Origin: Pseudomonadota bacterium
GTDB taxonomy: Bacteria > Pseudomonadota > Alphaproteobacteria > Micropepsales > Micropepsaceae
NCBI GenBank assembly: GCA_021804785.1
Contig: JAJZGY010000011.1
Location: 1 to 49,694 of the forward strand
Direction: 5' to 3'
DNA length: 49,694 nt
The notes beneath the pieces are model-generated. The model did not search any database. It saw nothing but the letters and a program-made list of their open reading frames with translations, and had not been told where the DNA came from. The translations under genes were made by a program, and so were the position numbers. Shown piece after piece: positions 45,269 through 49,694 of this stretch; within the stretch, counting starts at the first letter, position 1, and each line of letters opens with the position of its first letter.

Positions 45269-46729
45269 ATGACGGCGCCAGGCGGTAAAGAGTGCGTGCT
45301 CGGATCTCTGCGGAACAGCCTTAGCGGTCATGTCCTGCCGCGTCTGCAGTTCAATTCACTGGCCTCACGTCTCATTGCAGCTGCGGCAGTTTGGACAATT
45401 CTGGGCTTTGTAGTCGGAGGTCTGATCCTGTCAGGCGTGTTTCGGGCCGCAGTGCAGGACGAGTTTGATGAACGGCTCGCTGCCGATCTCGGGAGCATGA
45501 TCGCCGCAGCGGCGCTGACACCGAGCGGTCAGGTCACATTGCAGGGACGCTTCAACGATCCGCGCTTTGAGCGCATCTATTCCGGATCATATTGGGAGAT
45601 TGTACCAGACATCTCCGGGAGACTTGACCTTGGAAAAGCGCGGATCTCCCGTTCGCTGTTCGATCGCACCATAGAGCCCAGCGCGATGCCTGCCCACCGG
45701 CACAAGGCGGATGCGATCCTTTACGGCAACAGCATTGGTCCTTATGGCCGCGCCGTGCGCATCGCCGAGCAGCGTGTAATTTTTCCGGGGGAGACCATAA
45801 AGGAGCCGCCACGGGCATTCGTCTTCGTGGTCGCGGGTGATCTGGGGGACCTGGAAGGAGACATAACGCAATTCAATCGCATGATGTTTGAGGCATTTGC
45901 ACTTTTGGCCGCAGGCCTCATTGGCGCCGTCTTTATCCAGGTGCGCGTTGGTCTGAAGCCGCTCCGCAGGCTTTCCGTTGCCTTAGCACGTATCCGTGAC
46001 GGCAAGGCGCGGCGTCTGGAAGGGCGCTTTCCTGCCGAGCTGATGCCGCTGGCGGAGGAAATGAATGGGCTCATTGAGCATTCTGCCGAAGTGGTTGGCC
46101 GCGCCCGTACCCACGCCTCAAATCTTGCCCATGCCCTGAAGACCCCGCTCTCGGTCCTCACGAGTGAAGCTGCCGCCAATCCCGGCCAGCTTGCCGATGC
46201 CATGATGCGCCAGGTCGAGGTCATGCGCCGGCATATCGATCATCATCTGATGCGAGCGCGCGCCGCGGGAGCACAGGCAGTCCTCGGCGTATCTACACCG
46301 GTTGCCCCGGTTCTCGACGATCTGAGCCGGGTATTGCGGCGCATTCACGGTGACCACGGTATCCAGATTGCTGTCACTTGTCCGGCTGATCTGGGCTTTC
46401 GTGGTGAACGCCAGGACCTTGAGGAAATGGCCGGAAATCTCATGGATAATGCCTGCAAATGGGCTCGCAGTGAGGTCCGCGTGCGGGCGGTGATGCAGGG
46501 CAGCGGAAAACTCGTCATCGCAATCGGCGATGACGGGCCTGGCCTGACCGAAGAAGAGCGCATGCGGGTTGGCGAACGTGGCGAGCGCCTCGACGAAAGC
46601 GTCCCCGGCAGCGGCCTTGGGCTTGCCATAGTGCGTGACATTTCCCGGCTTTACGGCGGCAGCGTTGAACTGGCGACCAGCACCTTGGGCGGTCTTGAGG
46701 CGCGGCTCAATCTACCGGCGATGCGTTAG
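45269..46729 (+). CDS. PhoQ-like sensor histidine kinase
   Basis: This 486-residue kinase has two membrane helices (residues 37-58 and 207-226) around a periplasmic sensor of about 150 residues. The HAMP region is at about 228-280. The histidine is H288 in ASNLAHALKTPLSVLTSEAA, close to the PhoQ box (LxHxLKTPLxVL). The HATPase domain (about 375-485) has N box MAGNLMDNACKW and DDGPGLTEEERMRVG. Its 3' end overlaps the convergent MoaD-like gene by four bases. PhoQ itself senses Mg2+ and antimicrobial peptides; that is not shown for this protein. Confidence 0.88.
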   Translation: MTAPGGKECVLGSLRNSLSGHVLPRLQFNSLASRLIAAAAVWTILGFVVGGLILSGVFRAAVQDEFDERLAADLGSMIAAAALTPSGQVTLQGRFNDPRFERIYSGSYWEIVPDISGRLDLGKARISRSLFDRTIEPSAMPAHRHKADAILYGNSIGPYGRAVRIAEQRVIFPGETIKEPPRAFVFVVAGDLGDLEGDITQFNRMMFEAFALLAAGLIGAVFIQVRVGLKPLRRLSVALARIRDGKARRLEGRFPAELMPLAEEMNGLIEHSAEVVGRARTHASNLAHALKTPLSVLTSEAAANPGQLADAMMRQVEVMRRHIDHHLMRARAAGAQAVLGVSTPVAPVLDDLSRVLRRIHGDHGIQIAVTCPADLGFRGERQDLEEMAGNLMDNACKWARSEVRVRAVMQGSGKLVIAIGDDGPGLTEEERMRVGERGERLDESVPGSGLGLAIVRDISRLYGGSVELATSTLGGLEARLNLPAMR

Positions 46730-46983
46730 CCGCCGCTGAGTGCCTGGACAATATGGACTTCATCGTCTGGCCGCAGTGGATGAACGAGGTCGAAGACCTG
46801 CGCATCATTGACGAAGACGCGCAGATGCCGACGTATGCGATCCTGCTCATCGATCATGCGAAAGCGAATCCCTGGAAAGCGACGCTCGAGATCTTCGAGC
46901 AGCTCGGCGAGGTTTGAGCCATGGGCTTCAAGCGTGCTAGCGCCCGTGTAGGAGTGAAGCGGGCTGGCCATGCTGATTTTCAT
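46726..46983 (-). CDS. MoaD/ThiS-family sulfur-carrier-like protein
   Basis: This 85-residue protein has the ubiquitin-like fold of MoaD and ThiS and ends in the double glycine needed for activation. It has a beta-grasp core around LAELLEDLERRFPGIRFRM, the conserved DEQDRIRRHLRVFVNDAQ segment, and LRPDDEVHIVQALSGG at the end. A thiocarboxylated C-terminus would donate sulfur. It is co-directional with and 201 bases downstream of the BNR beta-propeller gene, a pairing I have seen in proteobacteria but cannot explain. The start at 46983 is chosen over the longer 47079 frame. Confidence 0.82.
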   Translation of the reverse strand: MKISMASPLHSYTGASTLEAHGSNLAELLEDLERRFPGIRFRMIDEQDRIRRHLRVFVNDAQVFDLVHPLRPDDEVHIVQALSGG

Positions 46984-47184: not shown

Positions 47185-48363
47185 TTAAGCCATCCTTGCA
47201 AACTCGACCGCATAAATTTCTGGCAGGTGCCGGGCCAGGTTCTGCCAATGCCCGCCTTCATCACGGCTCATCCAGAGCTCGCCGCCTGTGGTCCCAAAGT
47301 AAAGGCCCACAGGATCGGAATCGTCGCTGGTCATCGCCTGCCGCTTCACCGTCCACCAGCCTTGGGCCTCCGGCAGTCCCTCGGACTGCCGTCGCCATGT
47401 TCTGCCGGCGTTGGTGGTCATATAAACGGCGGGCTTTCCATCCGGGCTGGTACGCGGCCAAACGGAGGTGCCGTCCATGGGAAACACCCAGGCGGTCTTG
47501 TCATCATACGGATGCACCACAATCGGAAAGCCGATATCACCGATCTTCTTCGGCATGTTCCTGCCGATGCGTTCCCAACGCTTTCCTGGCCGGTCGAGAC
47601 GGTAGATCCCACAGTGATTTTGCTGATAGAGCCGGTCGGGGTTCGAGGGGCAGAGCCGTACGCAATGCGGGTCATGGAAGGCTATGTTTGCCACATCGAG
47701 GCCGTCGACGACCTCCATGCCCGCGAGCAGCGGCGTCCAGCTGCAGCCGCCATCAGTTGATTCATGCACACCACCGCTCGACATGCCGAAATAAAGATGC
47801 CGCGCATCGCGTGGATCAATGTTGATGGAGTGGATTGTTGGTCCGTCGGGTGTCCCCCCCTGGTCGTCACCCCAGATCGCCTGAAAATCCGGATTGTCAT
47901 TGACAGAGTGGAGAGGCTCCCAGGTGTCACCATGATCCTCGCTGCGGAACAGGCCCTGCGGTGAGGTGCCGGCGTACCAGACACCAGGCTCGCTGACGTG
48001 GCCAGCAGTAAGCCAGAACGTGTTTTTGACACTGCGGCCCGCTCGGTTTGGTGGATTGACGAAGGCTGGTGGCCGCCTGGCTTCCTTCCAGTGCCTGCCC
48101 AGATCGGTGGAACGAAATATAGTGGGCCCGAGATGCCCGGTCGAGGCGGCCGCGAGCATGGTGCCCCCTCCGCGTGGGTCCAGCACGAGGTGATTGATGA
48201 TATGGCCCAAGAAGTGCGGGCCATCCGTTCGCCACTTGCGCCGCGCCGCGTCGGCCTGAAAGAGCCAGGCGCCTTTGCGCGTCGCGACCAGCAGCAGTGT
48301 TTGGCCCTTGCCGCTCGTCCTTGTGGTACTGGGTTTTGTCTTTGATTTTGCGCTGCGCGCCAT
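47185..48363 (-). CDS. BNR-repeat beta-propeller protein
   Basis: This 392-residue protein is of the sialidase/sortilin beta-propeller type. It shows repeated BNR-like Asp boxes: STDLGRHWKE, SEDHGDTWEPL, STDGGCSWTPL, TTNAGRTWRR and SRDEGGHWQNL, each with the Ser/Thr-x-Asp-x-Gly-x-x-Trp form. There is no signal peptide, so it should be cytosolic. The sialidase catalytic residues are not evident, so it is better called a WD40/BNR-like propeller of unknown role. The ribosome binding site AGGAGG lies just before 48363. It is paired with a MoaD-like gene downstream. Confidence 0.82.
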   Translation of the reverse strand: MARSAKSKTKPSTTRTSGKGQTLLLVATRKGAWLFQADAARRKWRTDGPHFLGHIINHLVLDPRGGGTMLAAASTGHLGPTIFRSTDLGRHWKEARRPPAFVNPPNRAGRSVKNTFWLTAGHVSEPGVWYAGTSPQGLFRSEDHGDTWEPLHSVNDNPDFQAIWGDDQGGTPDGPTIHSINIDPRDARHLYFGMSSGGVHESTDGGCSWTPLLAGMEVVDGLDVANIAFHDPHCVRLCPSNPDRLYQQNHCGIYRLDRPGKRWERIGRNMPKKIGDIGFPIVVHPYDDKTAWVFPMDGTSVWPRTSPDGKPAVYMTTNAGRTWRRQSEGLPEAQGWWTVKRQAMTSDDSDPVGLYFGTTGGELWMSRDEGGHWQNLARHLPEIYAVEFARMA

Positions 48364-48441: not shown

Positions 48442-48882
48442 TCATGCGATGCTCCACAATGCTTCGCGCAATCTCCGGGGATCGCGGACGCCACGTTCGA
48501 TTTCCTCAAGCGTGCGCGCCCACACGGGGTATGCCTTGGCCAGGAGGACGCGTCCCGAATGGGTGATCATCACCCGTCGTCCCCGACGGTCGGTTTCGTC
48601 CACATGCACCTCGGCAAGCTTGCGTCGCACAAGCGGCTTCAGCATGGCCGTCAACGTGGTGCGGTCCATCGCGAGCAGGCTGGCTATGTCGCGCATCAGC
48701 GGAGGCTGCGGCCGGTTCAGCGCCATCAGAAGCGAGAATTGACCGTTCGTCAGATCAAACGGGGCGAATGCCGCATCGAACCTGCGTGCCAGCGCCCGCG
48801 CGGCACGCTGCGCTGCCAGACACAGGCAATGCTCCTTCACATGCAGAGTAGTTTCGAAGGGTAACGCGTCGTGACTGGTCAT
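48442..48882 (-). CDS. MarR-family transcriptional regulator
   Basis: This 146-residue winged helix protein has N-terminal dimerisation helices with Cys residues at 19 and 21 (HCLCLAAQRAAR), the recognition helix region MRDIASLLAMDRTTLTAMLKPL (about 62-83, in two parts) and the wing VDETDRRGRRVMITHSGR. A cysteine pair near the N-terminus could sense oxidants, as in OhrR, which is an inference. It is divergent from the YCII gene, and a perfect 12-bp palindrome lies in the shared promoter region. The start codon has no clear ribosome binding site. Confidence 0.88.
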   Translation of the reverse strand: MTSHDALPFETTLHVKEHCLCLAAQRAARALARRFDAAFAPFDLTNGQFSLLMALNRPQPPLMRDIASLLAMDRTTLTAMLKPLVRRKLAEVHVDETDRRGRRVMITHSGRVLLAKAYPVWARTLEEIERGVRDPRRLREALWSIA

Positions 48883-48917
48883 ATATTCTTTGTCGCACGA
48901 GATTCATGCATCCGGCT

Positions 48918-48958
48918 TTGACTCTGTCATAATATGTTGATATCAACCTTATTGTCAA
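48918..48958. promoter_or_regulatory. Overlapping divergent promoters with a MarR-type palindrome
   Basis: GTTGATATCAAC (48936-48947) is a perfect 12-bp palindrome. On the plus strand, TTGACT (48918-48923), 17 bases, TATCAA (48941-48946) would serve the YCII gene. On the minus strand, TTGACA (48953-48958), 18 bases, TATTAT (48929-48934) is near consensus for marR. The palindrome overlaps the first -10 element and lies within the spacer of the second, so a MarR dimer there could block both promoters. Confidence 0.65.
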
Positions 48959-48979
48959 GTCGCAGGAGGTGAAGAATGC

Positions 48980-49330
48980 ATGCGCTACCTCTCACTCCTC
49001 TGCTCTGCCAGTGGTCTGAAGGCTCCGGGCGATTCCGCGCAGGTGACGCAGATGCAGAGGCTTGCTGAACGCGAAACCAAGGCAGGGCGACTTCTCATGA
49101 CCGGTGCATCGCTGCCAGCCTCGCAGGGCAAGCGCGTACGCAGAACCGATGGCAAGGTTTCGGTTGCCGAGGATGCTGCACTTCCGGCTTTCGCCGAGGG
49201 CTGTGGCTTTACCACTCTTCGGGTTAGGGACGCGGCCGATCAGCAGGCATAGATCGAGGACTTCCTTGCGATCGCGGGTGACAGCAAGTGTATCATCTTG
49301 CCGCTGCTGGGTGTGCCTGGCTCAGATTGA
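48980..49330 (+). pseudogene. YCII-family gene with an in-frame amber codon
   Basis: The open part encodes 90 residues (MRYLSLLCSASG, then a central GRLLMTGASLPASQGKRVRR that matches YCII proteins). A TAG at 49250-49252 interrupts it. In the same frame the sequence continues IEDFLAIAGDSKCIILPL and ends at TGA 49328-49330, which matches the family's conserved C-terminal FLxxAGDGxCEI region. The DGPF motif normally found near residue 68 is missing: the sequence reads AEDAALPAFAEGC there. So the gene is decayed, or it makes a truncated protein. AGGAGG precedes it. The two ATG codons at 48976 and 48980 are in different frames; 48980 is the family one. Confidence 0.8.
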
Positions 49331-49362
49331 CCGCACACCACACTTAGGAAGGATTTTTTGTA

Positions 49363-49570
49363 ATCCCGGCTATCACTCCCTTCCTTTGGTTTGATAATCA
49401 GGCTGAAGAAGCCGCCGAGTTCTATGTCTCGCTATTCCCGAACTCGAAAATCATCGAACGTGTGCGAAGAACCGACGTTACCCCGCCCGATGCCGGTGAT
49501 CTGCTCACTGTGGCCTTTGAACTCGACGGCAAACGCTTTACCGCACTCAATGGCGGGTAACACTTTACCT
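49363..49570 (+). pseudogene. VOC/PhnB-family gene, broken at both ends
   Basis: The sequence reads ITPFLWFDNQAEEAAEFYVS then LFPNSKIIERVRRTDVTPP and TVAFELDGKRFTALNGG, the N-terminal half of a PhnB-type (glyoxalase-fold) protein. No start codon is in frame: the site expected for ATG reads GTA, although a stop and an AGGAAGG ribosome binding site lie just upstream. A TAA at 49558-49560 replaces the usual Pro codon of NGGPHF, and the family match then continues CACTTTACC (HFT) to about 49570, where an insertion sequence begins. The gene follows the YCII gene by 32 bases. It is inactive. Confidence 0.75.
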
Positions 49571-49694
49571 AAGGAGCTGTCGATAAATTTCTGAATCGGA
49601 AGTTGGCGGTTGGGGGATTCCCTTTGGGGGCGAACCTTTGTAGATCTGAGTCGTGATCGATGTGGCTGCCATCAAGCTTCGCTACGAAGCGCTA
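49571..49694 (+). mobile_element. Left part of an insertion sequence, probably ISAzo13-like
   Basis: After about 49570 the sequence loses all VOC-family coding signal and is non-coding for 80 bases, as an IS terminus would be. A reading frame then starts near the window edge. The frame's first 14 residues resemble the N-terminus of ISAzo13-family transposases. The left inverted repeat and target duplication cannot be tested, because the right end lies outside the window. The exact boundary may be off by a few bases. Confidence 0.5.
49653..49694 (+). CDS. Transposase, 5' end only
   Basis: A GTG at 49653 opens the frame MIDVAAIKLRYEAL, which runs off the window end. Many ISAzo13-family transposases begin with a very similar (M)IDVAAIRxRYxAL segment. 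Fourteen residues are too few for certainty. It is the reason for calling the adjacent element an insertion sequence. Confidence 0.45.
   Translation, partial: MIDVAAIKLRYEAL

Follow-up and report, generated by a model that had tools for sequence, protein, structure and literature searches.

The closest described system is MosR (Rv1049), an oxidation-sensing MarR repressor of Mycobacterium tuberculosis that has been assigned the PDB entries 4fx0 and 4fx4; according to PMC5823404, its disulphide joins Cys10 and Cys12 in helix 1 of one chain and its target is a secreted oxidoreductase, and PMC9506551 gives gtgtanntacac as its consensus operator. The marR locus described here was compared with MosR, with a genus set of 69 genomes (the genome under study, G000, among them) and with 94 marR loci, made up of 14 from genomes (whole-protein search) and 80 from named relatives, the best-scoring of at least 578. 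The MarR profile has 4fx0/4fx4 as its nearest solved protein (E = 2.7e-25; next, 3.4e-12). A Cys-x-Cys motif at the N terminus, which aligns with the CxC of 4fx0, is present in 94/94 loci. CxC is part of one of the two scan patterns; the other pattern is present as well in 67 of the 80 named loci, and the 14 genome loci were recovered with the whole protein as query and not by the CxC pattern. The protein and MosR are thus alike in sequence profile and cysteine motif, but they differ in operator (GTTGATATCAAC here, as opposed to the gtgtanntacac given in PMC9506551) and in targets (a VOC/GST/YCII-like cassette here, as opposed to the secreted oxidoreductase named in PMC5823404). As the conserved site differs from the reported MosR operator, we refer to the window protein as MosR-like, not as MosR. 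OsbR was considered as an analogue and left aside, owing to its cysteines at positions 55 and 133 (PMC8567585).

The window, the whole stretch of DNA that was analysed, is the entire 49,694-base contig C115, and its right edge at 49694 is the contig end. The parent assembly is a draft of 171 contigs totalling 3,294,946 bases, with 96.29% completeness and 0.12% contamination. The features of the locus are:

46726 to 46983, minus strand: intact gene for a MoaD/ThiS-like small protein (Pfam ThiS, 36.4 bits)
47185 to 48363, minus strand: intact WD40/BNR-repeat-like gene, downstream of marR (Pfam Sortilin-Vps10, 45.2 bits)
48442 to 48882, minus strand: intact marR, encoding the MosR-like regulator with Cys19-x-Cys21 (Pfam MarR_2 PF12802, 34.4 bits, cut-off 27)
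48918 to 48923, plus strand: possible −35 hexamer TTGACT of a divergent cassette promoter, a weak candidate left unscored by the promoter scan
48929 to 48958, minus strand: promoter-like TTGACA-18-TATTAT of marR, agreeing with the consensus at 11 of 12 positions, whose spacer contains the operator
48936 to 48947, no strand: predicted operator GTTGATATCAAC, a perfect palindrome, proposed as a binding site from sequence conservation
48980 to 49330, plus strand: YCII-like pseudogene, with an amber codon (TAG, 49250 to 49252) after 90 codons of the frame
49363 to 49568, plus strand: 5′ part of a PhnB-type VOC pseudogene (PF06983), with no start codon and with TAA at 49558
49569 to 49694, plus strand: left end and transposase frame start of an ISAzo13-family insertion sequence (IS), from DNA identity and terminal repeat, cut by the contig end

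On the marR side, marR, the operator and the WD40 and MoaD genes are intact, and the genes exhibit low pN/pS ratios. Relative to G020, the nearest genome among those searched (82% identity for marR, 84% for WD40 and 93% for the nitroreductase, the kinship being judged from these identities and not from a tree), the ratios are 0.23 for marR and 0.17 for the WD40 gene; the MoaD-like gene has 88% identity in G020 and a ratio of 0.13. The WD40 gene comes after marR in G000, G020, G005 and G029. The WD40/BNR-repeat-like and MoaD/ThiS-like genes travel as a pair beside MarR, on either side, and in three of the loci (L087, L116 and L120) both are matched on marR's divergent side.

The opposite arm is broken. 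The preliminary description had marR facing a YCII gene with an amber codon, followed by a broken PhnB-type VOC gene, and the reading frames confirm this arrangement; it had also counted three lesions, and here the decay stands, with the count rising to four (amber, start, stop and IS) within ~320 bases. Past the amber codon the YCII-like sequence stays in frame up to a TGA at 49328, and the pseudogene has 55% identity to the intact gene of G005. In the PhnB frame, a non-start codon occupies 49363, which is the start position in G005 and G029, and an in-frame TAG at 49345 prevents a longer start. The fragment nevertheless scores 69 bits against PF06983 (cut-off 24) and has 81% amino acid identity to the G005 protein over 69 codons. 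A TAA at 49570 was rejected as a PhnB lesion, as it falls within the IS end. The loss of module function, with marR and its operator left intact, is supported by G005 as an intact reference, in which the order is nitroreductase, PhnB, YCII-like, marR, WD40. The comparison with relatives agrees with this: no stop is present in the YCII-like matches of six other genomes (of the 69), and no IS is present at the locus in G005, G020 or G029.

At the DNA level, the IS left end is 72% identical to elements annotated on two plasmids of Mesorhizobium huakuii. Its terminal repeat, CTAAGGA, begins at 49569 (± two or three bases), and the common stretch of the two M. huakuii copies begins at the same point, within two or three bases. 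Judged by terminal repeat and transposase homology, on the left end alone, the element is a member of the ISAzo13 family. It shares with other members the left end, the CTAAGGA repeat and the transposase start, but differs in that contig C115 carries only 126 bases of it, with the right end and target duplication beyond the contig. An IS end of 79% similarity occurs in G005, on a different contig, and G031 has a 21-base match. Partial ISAzo13 transposase pieces at C107, C149 and C124 of the same assembly indicate that the family has other copies there; those at C149:1-1645 and C107:13284-14924 are partial transposase ends of largely similar sequence, located at contig ends, and C149 seems to carry just a piece of an element. 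A right end belonging to the PhnB insertion was not identified among these ISAzo13 pieces, and the stretches fetched around all three gave no convincing PhnB match.

The two broken genes differ in how firmly they can be named. Pfam YCII (PF03795) gave no match from the window pieces or from the intact G005 protein; it matches at E ≤ 1 in three of six aligned members of the YCII-like family, with a best score of 20.0 bits (cut-off 24), and the YCII-like gene of G067, at 19.7 bits, also lies below the cut-off. A single-sequence structure model (mean pLDDT 46.8) was too poor for a fold search, and 'YCII' is used here as a weak name for the cassette gene, suggested by these profile matches. The PhnB homologue of G005 resembles the PF06983 3-demethylubiquinone-9 3-methyltransferase-like VOC family throughout, scoring 150 bits across the whole model (cut-off 24) and matching 1u69 (E = 3.3e-30) and 3oms, 'PhnB protein' (E = 5.5e-15); the window copy differs from that family in being a broken 5′ fragment. 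With the G005 proteins as queries, the YCII-like protein was matched in 7/69 and PhnB in 49/69 genus genomes.

The cassette was also larger than first thought: it had been described as a two-enzyme module, whereas contig C100 of G000 and the relatives show three or four enzymes. Contig C100, found with the G020 flank as query (86% identity), begins inside a further (second) VOC gene, open over 117 residues and scoring 54.5 bits with the NCBIfam YjdN model (under the cut-off of 122), and then runs into the nitroreductase gene. The proposed join between C115 and C100 was made by synteny, not from reads. A direct IS bridge between the two contigs was rejected, as the start of C100 falls within the second VOC gene and shows no IS end, and the 3′ part of PhnB was not found in the assembly with the G005 protein as query. 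In G067, marR and the operator lie beside the full cassette (YCII-like, GST, PhnB and VOC), and in G029, where no YCII-like match occurs, marR faces PhnB, with GST and a pair of VOC genes beyond it. G020 keeps marR, WD40, MoaD and the nitroreductase, with 560 bases separating nitroreductase from marR. This gap contains two remnants, whose E-values refer to a 1.5 kb target: a YCII-like piece of 15 residues (E = 0.006, weak alone) and a piece of the second VOC gene that carries a frameshift and is 69% identical in DNA across 127 bases (E = 4.6e-10). PhnB gave no match in the 560 bases. Across the wider set, the divergent frame next to marR was taken in 93 cases (94 were found, and that of G020 was omitted) and matched DUF899 in 21, glyoxalase PF00903 in 16, PF06983 in eight and GST_N in seven at E ≤ 1e-4, where the frame is a mechanical pick (the longest starting within 450 bases), so that some are wrong, and families can overlap in one protein.

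The preliminary description explained the tolerance of these losses by an intact relative elsewhere in the genome. We consider it improbable that intact paralogues took over in this way: the intact YCII-like and PhnB proteins of G005, used as queries, found neither a spare match nor a close duplicate in the G000 assembly. One intact YCII-family gene does occur at C146:10887-11144 (73.2 bits in a Pfam YCII search), but it belongs to another branch, for which profile comparison with the YCII-like family detected no relation (probability 0.7%), and its type is matched in 40/69 genus genomes, including G020 and the module-keeping G005. On the VOC side, a PF06983 search of G000 returned only the window fragment and the C100 gene, which survives in at least its 3′ part and could be read in favour of a substitute, at 23.4 bits (just below the cut-off of 24).

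The position of the lesions, which are confined to the final 445 bases of C115 in a 171-contig draft, would be in keeping with an assembly or sequencing artefact at the contig end, or with mixed strains in the assembly. Against this, the lesions differ in kind, the frames are otherwise kept, the IS end fits a known family down to its terminal repeat, and the other flank is present on C100; we regard an artefact as no likelier than substitution by paralogues. Slightly less likely again is that the shortened YCII-like protein of 90 residues is still produced and functional, with PhnB alone dead. Its frame retains a start codon, has no frameshift ahead of the amber codon and still has a −35-like hexamer, but the amber codon deletes a well-conserved near-C-terminal block of the family, FLxVAGDGEC, and identity to the G005 protein is no better before the amber codon (49/90) than after it (13/23, with the stop column counted). 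Departures from the family consensus also point towards lost function, with nine in G000 and two in G005, a difference that is not significant (p = 0.065). Rather than any of these, we consider it quite probable, with its working deduced from sequence, that we are looking at a divergent unit for the oxidant/electrophile response, of which one side is decaying.

The substitution pattern bears on when the arm was lost. Relative to G005, pN/pS is 0.12 (0.06–0.21) for PhnB over 69 codons, so that PhnB is under no weaker constraint than its neighbours, which have 0.19 for marR, 0.23 for WD40 and 0.22 for the nitroreductase. With G029 as outgroup, the PhnB changes divide into seven nonsynonymous (lesions counted) and 18 synonymous on the G000 branch, and five and eight on the G005 branch. 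By a rough estimate that assumes 75% nonsynonymous sites and half the pairwise dS of four genes, a PhnB neutral since the G020 split would show 37–70 nonsynonymous changes, as opposed to the ~12 seen across the entire G000–G005 pair. This low nonsynonymous count suggests that PhnB died late, separately from the loss in G020, which is further advanced; joint inheritance of the inactivation with G020 is rejected for PhnB by the same pattern. It is thus supported, from substitution counts, that PhnB remained under selection until long after the G020 split and that its losses in G000 and G020 are separate. The pN/pS of the YCII-like gene to G005 is 0.38 (0.28–0.52). Its nine departures from the family consensus, with two in G005, are a hint, not significant, that this gene may have been relaxed earlier.

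The operator extends far beyond this locus. In 87/94 loci, the TTGATATCAA core lies upstream of marR at a distance of no more than 300 bases (it is missing in L095, L115, L110, L139, L027, L030 and L035). L029 and L109 appear to be one contig; when the MarR proteins are clustered at 80% identity, 51 of the 57 clusters have the operator. The core occurs 90 times in 1,006,060 bases of loci, compared with two occurrences in total for 19 palindromes of the same composition. A marR-strand TTGAC begins 12–13 bases ahead of the core in 69 of 88 core-bearing loci (window counted). A divergent TTGAC lies 14 or 15 bases from the core in 15 of 88 rows in all, with the window, G005 and G029 among them; many rows were truncated where marR starts and do not reach that far. 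The divergent hexamer is absent in G020, as expected if selection there holds only the marR side. Operator-bearing members of the MarR family come from Pseudomonadota and Acidobacteriota (L091 and L162, by record title; L095 is without the operator).

In the genus set, the exact operator has 28 sites in 22/69 genomes, and a reversed control has one site in one genome; in the 3.29 Mb G000 assembly, exact GTTGATATCAAC is present as a single copy. Stretches around 18 of the 28 sites were fetched, the remaining 10 being within loci already compared, and searched with seven queries: six contain marR (the G061 site does not precede its start), one, in G002, has PhnB without marR, and 11 have neither. 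The G002 site (position 2012 of C2:800500-805000, L180) lies ~60 bases ahead of PhnB, with no marR in 4.5 kb, and the marR gene of G002 has its own operator site on contig C8; the C2 PhnB is likely a target in trans. The 11 sites without marR or cassette genes by the seven queries (L184, L185, L187 and L189–L196) suggest that, in relatives, similar sites act on other genes as well, the exact site occurring once in G000.

No report of a MarR family under GTTGATATCAAC was found in the open literature, in which TTGATATCAA together with MarR matched only papers that are, by title, unrelated. Likewise, searches of the open literature found no MarR with a YCII/glyoxalase operator, with DUF899/glyoxalase or with a divergent 3-demethylubiquinone-9 gene, and no alphaproteobacterial MosR homolog. 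We lean towards the view that these proteins form a large MosR-like family with one strictly kept operator, GTTGATATCAAC, in the spacer of its own promoter, controlling exchangeable detoxification cassettes (DUF899, glyoxalase, 3-dmu-9_3-mt, GST and YCII-like) that come and go as the switch stays.

How the unit would work can be outlined from these comparisons. A MarR dimer would bind GTTGATATCAAC in the marR promoter spacer, near the divergent promoter, and repress both sides; by analogy with MosR, oxidation of the N-terminal CxC would release it from the DNA. The cassette so released (YCII-like, PhnB, the further VOC and, in some relatives, GST) would clear reactive electrophiles, and the opposite arm would yield MarR, the WD40-repeat-like protein and the MoaD-like protein. 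With the cassette arm broken by the amber codon, the lost start, the in-frame stop and the ISAzo13-family insertion, marR and the operator may have been retained because the marR-WD40-MoaD arm is still under their control. Since the operator is part of the marR promoter, loss of the cassette need not touch the regulator, and marR was probably kept because its operator lies in its own promoter, reading marR-WD40-MoaD. The cassette, whose content varies among relatives, would also be cheap to lose.

The decay itself is ordinary genome erosion, and it is the operator family, more than the pseudogenes, that is worth following. G000 and G020 appear to have separately lost the same divergent arm and kept the regulator, the likely reason being that the operator sits inside the regulator's own promoter. 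The rule that this would provide is that a single 12-base sequence, matched exactly, identifies the switch, and perhaps also other targets of the switch, in many genomes.
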